From Plastoroseomonas hellenica (GTDB lineage: Bacteria; Pseudomonadota; Alphaproteobacteria; Acetobacterales; Acetobacteraceae), in contig NZ_JAAGBB010000026.1 in the NCBI RefSeq assembly GCF_018129085.1, forward strand, positions 1 through 64,000: a DNA stretch of 64,000 bases, in the 5' to 3' direction. Positions 29,016 through 47,548 of the stretch are shown here, in pieces. The stretch's first letter is position 1. Every line of letters starts with the position of its first letter. The notes beneath the pieces are model-generated. The model made no database searches and was not told the origin of the DNA. It saw only the letters and a list, made by a program, of their open reading frames with translations. Made by a program: the position numbers and the translations under genes.

Positions 29016-29039
29016 CGGACCGGTCGTTTGACCGGTCCG
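29016..29039 (+). terminator. Hairpin downstream of crcB
   Basis: CGGACCGGTC-gttt-GACCGGTCCG is a perfect 10-bp stem with a 4-nt loop, 11 nt after the crcB stop. No T tract follows. It directly abuts a chain of three further short hairpins that belong to a dispersed repeat. Confidence 0.6.
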
Positions 29040-29040
29040 A

Positions 29041-29117
29041 GGCCGCGAATGCGGCCCGCCGCTAATGCGGCGAAGCCAAGGGCGGCGGATGCCGCCCGCC
29101 CGGCGTCTGAGGGGCAA
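29041..29117. repeat. Chained short-hairpin repeat, copy 1
   Basis: Three short perfect stems follow one another: GGCCGC-gaat-GCGGCC (29041-29056), CGCCGC-taat-GCGGCG (29057-29072) and GGGCGGC-ggat-GCCGCCC (29080-29097). A conserved GGCGTCTGAGGG block follows, ending 6 nt before the stop of the minus-strand VOC gene. The last hairpin and the block recur near 47.04 kb with a different stem sequence but the same GGAT loop. Confidence 0.65.
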
Positions 29118-29123
29118 TGTTTA

Positions 29124-29597
29124 TCACCCTTCCATCATCATCTTGTCCCAGCGCGCCTGCATCTCGGCGGGGCTCACATCCTCCCGCCGGCTCGCCAGGT
29201 GCCAGGCATGCCCGGCCGGGTCGATGATCGTCCCGCTGCGGTCGCCATAGAACTGGTCGGTCGCCGGCCGCTCCACCCTGGCACCAGCCGCGACGGCACG
29301 GGCGATCGCCGCATCCACATCCTCGACATAGAGGTGCAGCCGCGTGGCCCTGCCGCCCTCGCCCGGCGGCACCGCGCCATAGTCCGGGTAAGGGTCGGAG
29401 AGCATCAGCAGCGTGCCGCCGAGCCGCAACTCGGCATGGCCGACCTTCCCGGAGGGCTCGGTCAGCCGGAACTCCTCCGCCGCGCCGAAGGCCGCGACAT
29501 AGAAGGCGATCGCGGCCGCCGCATCCGCCACCACGATCGAAACCGTGAGCGCCGGCCGCCCTTCCGGCACCGGGTTGATCCTGCTGGGCATGGCCAT
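29124..29597 (-). CDS. VOC-family (glyoxalase/bleomycin resistance-like) protein
   Basis: The 157-residue product has the two-module vicinal-oxygen-chelate layout: ALTVSIVVADAAAAIAFYVA and FGAAEEFRLTEPSGKVGHAE in the first half, then LHLYVEDVDAAIARAVAAGA and DRSGTIIDPAGHAWHLAS in the second. The pattern resembles the PhnB-like or SRPBCC-linked glyoxalase group that shows DPFGHxWxL near the end. A ggaggag lies 4 nt before the chosen ATG. The reaction is unknown. A dispersed hairpin repeat sits right behind its stop. Confidence 0.8.
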   Translation of the reverse strand: MAMPSRINPVPEGRPALTVSIVVADAAAAIAFYVAAFGAAEEFRLTEPSGKVGHAELRLGGTLLMLSDPYPDYGAVPPGEGGRATRLHLYVEDVDAAIARAVAAGARVERPATDQFYGDRSGTIIDPAGHAWHLASRREDVSPAEMQARWDKMMMEG

Positions 29598-29683
29598 TCT
29601 CCTCCCCGACATTCGCGCGGGAAGCCTATCACCCCCGCGCGGCCGGCGCTGACGCCGCGGCGCGAAATGCCCTACACACCCGC

Positions 29684-46846: not shown

Positions 46847-46864
46847 CTGTAGAGCCTATACCAA

Positions 46865-47074
46865 CGGCACGCGTTCGGCTCGTGCCGAGCGCCCGAATGG
46901 GTGCGCTCCCCCCGCGGCCGCAGGCCGCCGCCCATCCCTGCGGGGCGAGCGAAGCGATGCCCTGGGGCCGCACATGCGCCCCCGCGCGCGACCATCAGCC
47001 GACGCCAATGCCACCCTGACCGCGCGGAAGCCAAGCCGCACGGATGTGCGGCGCTGGCGTCTGAGGGCGCAATA
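46865..47074. repeat. Intergenic repeat region with chained hairpins, copy 2
   Basis: This 228-nt gap between fdhD and a membrane-protein gene has no gene. It contains GAGCGCCC-gaat-GGGTGCGCTC (about 46887-46908) and CCGCAC-ggat-GTGCGG (47036-47051), flanked by GCGGAAGCCAAG (47023-47035) and GGCGTCTGAGGG (47055-47067). The last part recurs at 29.07-29.11 kb with another stem but the same GGAT loop and flanks. The block ends 8 nt before the stop of the minus-strand gene. Confidence 0.6.
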
Positions 47075-47497
47075 TTACCGCATTCGACCTCGGAGCGTCG
47101 CCAGGATCAGGCCGGTGCCGAACCCCCAGATACCGTTCACCAGGAACGGGCGCCACCAGCGCGATGGGTCCAGGATCGGCATCGGCAACCCGCGCAGCGC
47201 CGGCGCCAGGGTCATGCTGATGGTCGCCGCCCCCAGAAGGCCCACGGTCACTGCCGCGACCATGGTCGACAGCCGCGGCCGGGCAAGCAGGATCAGCGCC
47301 ACCAGCATGCCCCAGACGCCGCCCCAGAAGGAGATCCAGAGCAGCCGCGGCAGGCCGAAGGGCTCCACCGGGCGCATCGAGAAGGGCGGGTTCATCACCA
47401 GCCCCGCATTGTACAGCGCCCAGATGGCCAACTGGTGGAAGGTCGGCACCGCGAGCAGCCCCGCGGCGAAACCCGACAGCAGCAGGCGCATGGGCAT
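47075..47497 (-). CDS. Small integral membrane protein
   Basis: The 140-residue product starts MPMRLLLSGFAAGLLAVPTF and has about four hydrophobic segments, for example LLWISFWGGVWGMLVALILL and MVAAVTVGLLGAATISMTLA, with a final FLVNGIWGFGTGLILATLRG. No named family is recognised. Alternative starts exist 24 nt upstream and 6 nt downstream. It is 51 nt downstream of the fused spermidine-synthase-like gene, probably in the same transcript. A hairpin repeat lies right behind its stop. Confidence 0.65.
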   Translation of the reverse strand: MPMRLLLSGFAAGLLAVPTFHQLAIWALYNAGLVMNPPFSMRPVEPFGLPRLLWISFWGGVWGMLVALILLARPRLSTMVAAVTVGLLGAATISMTLAPALRGLPMPILDPSRWWRPFLVNGIWGFGTGLILATLRGRMR

Positions 47498-47548
47498 GGC
47501 GGAGCTTTCCCCCTCAGGCATGGATGGTGGGGACGACCCCGGTCAAAA

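Follow-up and report, generated by a model that had tools for sequence, protein, structure and literature searches.

In mosaic palindromic repeats such as BIMEs, RPE and RIME, palindromes form chains that are put together as mosaics and contain nested insertions. The bacterial MITEs RUP, Correia/NEMIS and ERIC are described, in the sections of PMC2229807 drawn on here, as elements of about 100–200 bp with terminal inverted repeats (TIRs), a target duplication and a highly base-paired interior. Among insertion sequences, those of the IS1031 group (IS5 family) insert preferentially at TNA and produce a 3-bp duplication, according to the relevant part of PMC12016507. REPs, as covered by the excerpted text of PMC3733652, are dispersed palindromic sequences found at 3' ends and in convergent gaps, each composed of a tag, one stem and a tail; those of the CGTC kind, mainly alphaproteobacterial, have CGTC directly before a stem of 8–9 bp with a loop of 4–5 bases and a CCA-like tail, and the same text reports none from Acetobacteraceae.

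The window, the whole stretch of 64,000 nucleotides of Plastoroseomonas hellenica analysed here, contains two copies of a family that we regard, with a probability of about three in four, as small non-autonomous mobile elements (MITEs) with an interior made of a chain of DNA hairpins. As far as the cited sections allow a comparison, the family is similar to RUP, Correia/NEMIS and ERIC in its size, TIRs, target duplication and base-paired interior but differs from them in targeting TNA rather than TA, in an interior of three to five separate hairpins whose joints are near-fixed and whose stems can be exchanged, and in that no parent IS was found. The TNA target and 3-bp repeat are common to the IS1031 group as it is described there, which alone is no proof of membership; the IS described has other ends and no transposase is linked to the hairpin-chain element, so that this similarity is a lead only. 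Like CGTC and GTAG REPs in the portion consulted, the family consists of dispersed palindromes downstream of genes, with the same alphaproteobacterial spread as the CGTC kind, but it forms a hairpin chain, has no stem after CGTC and possesses TIRs and a TNA duplication. It also shares with BIMEs, RPE and RIME the organization into mosaic palindrome chains with nested insertions, whereas its conserved sequences are the joints and not the palindromes. A literature search covering few subscription journals yielded no earlier description of this family or of insertion at stop codons. The two copies comprise the following features.

29016..29039, forward strand: hairpin H1 of copy 1 (class A), CGGACCGGTC-GTTT-GACCGGTCCG, from sequence and fold
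29041..29056, forward strand: hairpin H2 of copy 1, GGCCGC-GAAT-GCGGCC, from sequence, model match and covariation
29057..29072, forward strand: hairpin H3 of copy 1, CGCCGC-TAAT-GCGGCG, from sequence, model match and covariation
29073..29080, forward strand: joint AAGCCAAG of copy 1, near-fixed among host-genome copies
29080..29097, forward strand: hairpin H4 of copy 1, GGGCGGC-GGAT-GCCGCCC, the most variable stem, covarying
29098..29112, forward strand: tail GCCCGGCGTCTGAGG of copy 1, near-fixed
29118..29126, forward strand: probable decayed right end of copy 1, TGTTTA, then TCA, by comparison with the MITE ends of the relative G420
46859..46906, forward strand: class A 5' end of copy 2, with TACCAACGG, H1 and H2 (GCGCCC-GAAT-GGGTGC), from sequence
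46914..46928, forward strand: start of the class B element of copy 2, GCGGCC-GCA-GGCCGC; other class B copies start alike
46961..47066, forward strand: class B core of copy 2, with long H3 and the tail to 47066, a covariance-model match of 52.9 bits
47035-47052, forward strand: hairpin H4 of copy 2, (G)CCGCAC-GGAT-GTGCGG(C), with the same joints as copy 1
47069..47077, forward strand: probable decayed right end of copy 2, GCAATA, then TTA, by the same comparison with G420

The original prediction gave the letters of the last hairpin and its kept joints exactly for both copies (29080–29097 and inside 47035–47052), and it correctly placed both next to the 3' end of a minus-strand gene (stop codons at 29124 and 47075). 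The repeat that it described as copy 1 is present but truly starts about 30 bases earlier, with the extra hairpin at 29016–29039; the stretch from AAGCCAAG to GCCCGGCGTCTGAGG, with H4 within it, occupies 29073–29112. It also treated the two copies as one repeat: they do belong to the same family, but their assemblies differ, copy 1 being of class A and copy 2 a composite in which a class A 5' end (46859–46906) is fused to a class B element (46914–47066). Both copies probably terminate in decayed MITE ends lying straight on the stop codon of the minus-strand gene. The TCA after copy 1 is the TGA stop codon of a gene of the glyoxalase family (29124–29612), and the TTA after copy 2 is the TAA stop codon of a gene without a Pfam match (47075–47521). 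Compared with shuffles, copy 1 has z-scores of −6.6 and −6.3 for the DNA fold of its two strands and of −5.4 and −5.7 for the RNA fold. The DNA fold of the copy 2 core is not far better than that of shuffles (z −1.2), so the evidence for the structure of copy 2 comes from the family.

A covariance-model search of the 7.28-Mb host genome found at least 140 copies, including these two, at E ≤ 0.01 (150 candidates were scored, and further copies were seen otherwise). The repeat is therefore dispersed, as had been proposed, and the absence of further copies, which had been named as an argument against the proposal, is ruled out. The core architecture is H2-H3-AAGCCAAG-H4-GCCCGGCGTCTGAGG. Exact copies of the joint pattern GAAGCCAAG-N12-40-GGCGTCTGAGG number 22 in the genome and 0 in a backward control, and the stems differ among most of these 22; the repeat does not arise by chance. 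Thirty copies picked for differing sequence were aligned over 77 columns (H2 at 6–11/16–21, H3 at 22–27/32–37, the joint, H4 at 45–51/56–62, and the tail). In this alignment 96.8% of 661 cells are paired, as compared with 76.5% in shuffles and 31–52% when slid, and 118 cells show two-sided changes (44.8 in shuffles); joint conservation and part of the H2/H3 pairing are here present by construction because the copies had been retrieved via the joints and selected for having H2 and H3 formed. In a less biased set of 109 matches (105 distinct; 100 fetched loci) the joints stay near-fixed. Pairing in that set reaches 97.8% of 2,076 cells, and two-sided changes affect 347 cells (102.8 in shuffles), in an alignment that was fitted to the covariance model and so leans towards it; the stems thus co-vary across further copies, in agreement with what had been predicted from two. 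Most of the changes flip a G·C pair to C·G, and intermediates changed on one side only are rare.

Positional statistics are based on 139 tabulated host copies (one fewer than the model search gave), 75 of class A and 64 of class B, a division that in the gene-context table rests on simple motifs. Class B copies have a longer H3 and an extra 5' hairpin, and no clear TIR was seen in those examined. In some of them (L012, L019) the tail is followed, some 25 nt further on, by another one, GCCGGCGYYTGAGG. Other host copies, including L026, L027, L036 and L206, carry an extra hairpin module (TCACGCC..GGCGTGCTCTTCGCACGAC) nested within the chain, at two different positions, which makes the element itself a target for small palindromes.

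The ends of the mobile unit were defined within Acetobacteraceae only. Recent amplification is seen in the relative G420, one of 15 among 100 genomes of the family sample with matches at E ≤ 1e-9, which has over 20 equal-scoring, near-identical copies of 157 bp. From 20 fetched copies, the boundaries in G420 read TNA, then TACCAACTCGGTCAAAGGCTGACCC, the core and GGCGTTGATGTGTCAACATCAACGCGCGTTGGTA, then TNA again, with TACCAAC/GTTGGTA as TIRs. An identical TNA on both sides was found in 22 of 24 copies tested and represents a 3-bp target duplication; an IS630-type TA target was dropped for this reason. Related ends, TACCAACGG and CCGYTGGTA, are present in part of the host class A copies, and L156, L167, L189, L190, L234 and L281 have matching flanking TNA (an automatic match in L218, CGG, was left out, not being TNA); in other class A copies one end only is recognisable. 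Given these ends, the TNA duplication, the small size, the multiple copies and the lack of a transposase gene, the G420 and class A elements are MITEs, for which a putative transposase would cut at TNA. Two observations stand against the MITE explanation: no transposase with these ends was found in the 406 loci searched, on plasmids or in the family sample, and class B, nearly half of the host copies, combines the lack of a clear TIR with a strong orientation bias. Class B copies, even without clear ends, may have spread in the same way as class A.

Several G420 copies (L361, L365, L369, L370) are 120–121 bp long and lack part of the H1/H2 region while retaining both ends, and represent internal deletion forms. 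In locus L406 (454–1558), an IS110-family element (Pfam DEDD_Tnp_IS110, Transposase_20) lies inside a MITE, between AAGCCAAG and the right end; H4 and the tail of this MITE are missing. The same right junction sequence occurs at G420 contig ends (L357, L360, L372). A supposed parent IS in G420 was rejected, as it resembles an IS110-family element inside the MITE, which was seen complete only in G494.

The palindromic and dispersed nature of the family, its presence at 3' ends and in convergent gaps, its occurrence mainly in alphaproteobacteria and the CGTC in its tail would also be expected if the element were a CGTC or GTAG REP that a tyrosine transposase or some other enzyme moves (compare the parts of PMC3733652 cited above). 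However, the CGTC sits in the unpaired tail GGCGTCTGAGG after H4 and no stem follows it, and no Y1_Tnp gene is present in the host genome (0 matches to PF01797, with 5 of 14 control genomes positive). The CGTC placement and the absence of PF01797 from the host genome rule out membership in the CGTC REPs and the GTAG REP/RAYT systems. The TIRs and 3-bp duplication of the G420 copies contradict the assignment of class A to REPs, and CGTC REPs are, in the portion of PMC3733652 consulted, missing from Acetobacteraceae. Taken as a whole, a REP origin is highly improbable.

The MITE explanation also bears on the location of the copies. A test for a preference for 3' ends, suggested along with the original prediction, was positive: among 138 host copies with two flanks, 58 lie in convergent and 8 in divergent gaps, whereas 265 control gaps from these loci include 28 convergent and 67 divergent ones, the gap classes being taken from codon-trained gene calls that are automatic and not curated. 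Intragenic copies numbered 22 of 139 with the first gene caller and 0 with the codon-trained caller and a stricter overlap rule. Thirty two-ended insertions (20 from G420 and 10 from the host) were available, and 24 intergenic ones were left after six within called genes had been dropped. In 16 of these 24 the TNA is exactly a called stop codon, as opposed to the 11.4 that an even choice among all TNA sites of the respective gap would give (P 0.004), a modest excess over available TNA sites that depends on automatic gene calls. Stop codons make up much of the usable TNA where DNA is GC-rich and gene-dense, so that the TNA target rule and the scarcity of TNA account for most of the 3'-end location and leave this modest excess. 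In such genomes a stop codon (TAA or TGA) would often be among the few TNA sites of a gap, and insertion into it would duplicate the stop and leave the gene intact; such insertions would survive, which would give rise to the 3'-end bias.

Class B copies in unidirectional gaps have one orientation relative to the neighbouring gene in 22 cases versus 5 (P 0.0015); for class A the ratio is 26:19 (P 0.37). Insertion alone gives no account of the class B bias, for which a role at the 3' end of the messenger is a natural guess. This bias favours a 3'-UTR RNA element, in which the transcript of the adjoining gene would continue after the stop codon through CCTCAG..H4..H3..H2, with the chain of hairpins ending or stabilising the messenger, the mobile ends being the way of spread and the RNA the reason why the element is kept. 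The distance from GAGG to the stop codon, which is at most 13 bp in 54 of 106 copies with a minus-strand gene as right neighbour, and the retention of the element at syntenic loci across genera are likewise in its favour. Against it are the even orientation of class A and the location of the stop codons in G420, six on the left and four on the right. In Croceicoccus and Erythrobacter (L046, L061) the same genes flank the element, and its GAGG, some 10 bases ahead of the start codon of the next gene, is a putative ribosome-binding site.

If the constraint acted on the RNA of one strand, G·T should be more frequent than A·C. The H2, H3 and H4 stems of host-genome copies comprise 1,770 cells, with 1,722 Watson-Crick pairs, 12 G·T, 12 A·C and 24 other mismatches. 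In tRNA stems from the fetched loci, 29 of 401 pairs are G·U (7.2%; 18 tRNAs), a control that contains accepted pairs only, so that the comparison covers G·U alone and not A·C. As G·T is no commoner than A·C, the constraint looks like one on DNA hairpins rather than on RNA. Rfam gave 0 gathering-level matches in the 64-kb window and, at E ≤ 1, no match that covers the element in 14 loci, and no intrinsic terminator (a GC-rich hairpin followed by a T run) was detected at either window copy, both of which also count against the 3'-UTR explanation; we consider it unlikely. In the preferred MITE explanation, the stems would be kept because the DNA must fold, either single-stranded or as a cruciform. 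The earlier claim that structure is kept is supported, with the emphasis moved from an RNA fold to a DNA hairpin and with stem exchange as a further contribution to the covariation. A rule for DNA tetraloops describes loops of the form C(GNAB)G. It was set aside for this family: it fits the host loops GGAT, GAAT and GGA but fails for H2 loops such as GACT and GACC in other groups, and a literature search gave no confirmation of the rule.

At the 47.0-kb site, the aligned parts stand 55 nt apart in G001 and 43 nt apart in G002, short gaps that contain no element, and G007 and G017 show none in the stretch shown. At the 29.0-kb site, the 33-nt gap of G001 has no element, and the corresponding slot of G002 is occupied by a different copy that has the same orientation but other stems. 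The element is thus absent from two congeners at 47.0 kb and from one at 29.0 kb, although divergence of the gaps prevents a base-exact view of the empty sites.

Exchange of hairpins was examined in 35 parsed short host copies, using pairs of equal length only. H4 divergence is 32.7% in 18 pairs with a mean left-arm divergence of 1.6%, and 26.8% in 48 pairs with a left-arm divergence of 25%. In six copies with identical left arms, three clearly different H4 stems occur, one of them also in variants that differ by one or two bases. Synteny on both flanks was seen for five pairs of genome-contig loci, and in four of these the stems are swapped. In L081/L088, with flanks 88–91% identical, H1, H3 and H4 differ while the joints, H2 and the 3' hairpin are kept; H4 differs also in L065/L126, L046/L061 and L121/L141, and shows no difference in L042/L053. 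One H4, CAAACC-GGA-GGTTTG, recurs in several genera. Because H4 divergence is uncoupled from left-arm divergence and H4 is swapped at syntenic loci of different species, hairpins appear to be exchanged. Possibly, then, and we propose this only tentatively, the hairpins are interchangeable DNA cassettes: fixed joints of about 10 bp would allow replacement of a whole stem-loop from another copy by gene conversion or by template switching at the joints, with the structure inherited and the sequence reshuffled. If so, the covariation would stem largely from swapped ready-made hairpins at the DNA level, with no RNA needed. Ordinary stepwise compensatory evolution of stems under structural selection, without hairpin exchange, is illustrated by the intermediate L156, GGGCGGC/GCCGTCC with one G·T, and the completed L228, GGATGGC/GCCGTCC. 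As the sole explanation it seems unlikely, since left-arm divergence does not predict H4 divergence, G·C to C·G flips dominate with few one-sided intermediates, and an identical H4 occurs in several genera; alongside exchange, stepwise compensation may provide a second route to stem change.

A scan of genome contigs with the joint pattern gave at least 116 stretches, a few of which are coding or due to chance. Among the matches listed are Roseomonas, Falsiroseomonas, Neoroseomonas, Roseococcus, Roseicella, Azospirillum and Nitrospirillum and, of the Sphingomonadales, Qipengyuania and Erythrobacter. Judging by these matches, the family is also present in other Rhodospirillales and in Sphingomonadales. 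All three genomes of the host genus are positive (110, 12 and 80 copies at E ≤ 1e-5), as are at least 18 of 385 genomes of the class sample at E ≤ 1e-9, from about a dozen families, a lower bound owing to strict filters and the scoring of 12 candidates per genome.

Covariation is the standard sign of functional RNA. In this family a very strong signal, with more than 100 copies in one genome, comes without the tolerance of G-U that RNA should show and with signs of wholesale hairpin exchange, so that the family can serve RNA discovery as a warning and as a test case. The family also suggests a simple rule for how small elements may gather at the 3' ends of genes in GC-rich genomes, namely that stop codons offer the TNA target and that an insertion there doubles the stop and spares the gene, and it adds to the catalogue of bacterial repeats in Acetobacteraceae, a group reported, in the text of PMC3733652 drawn on here, to be without CGTC REPs.
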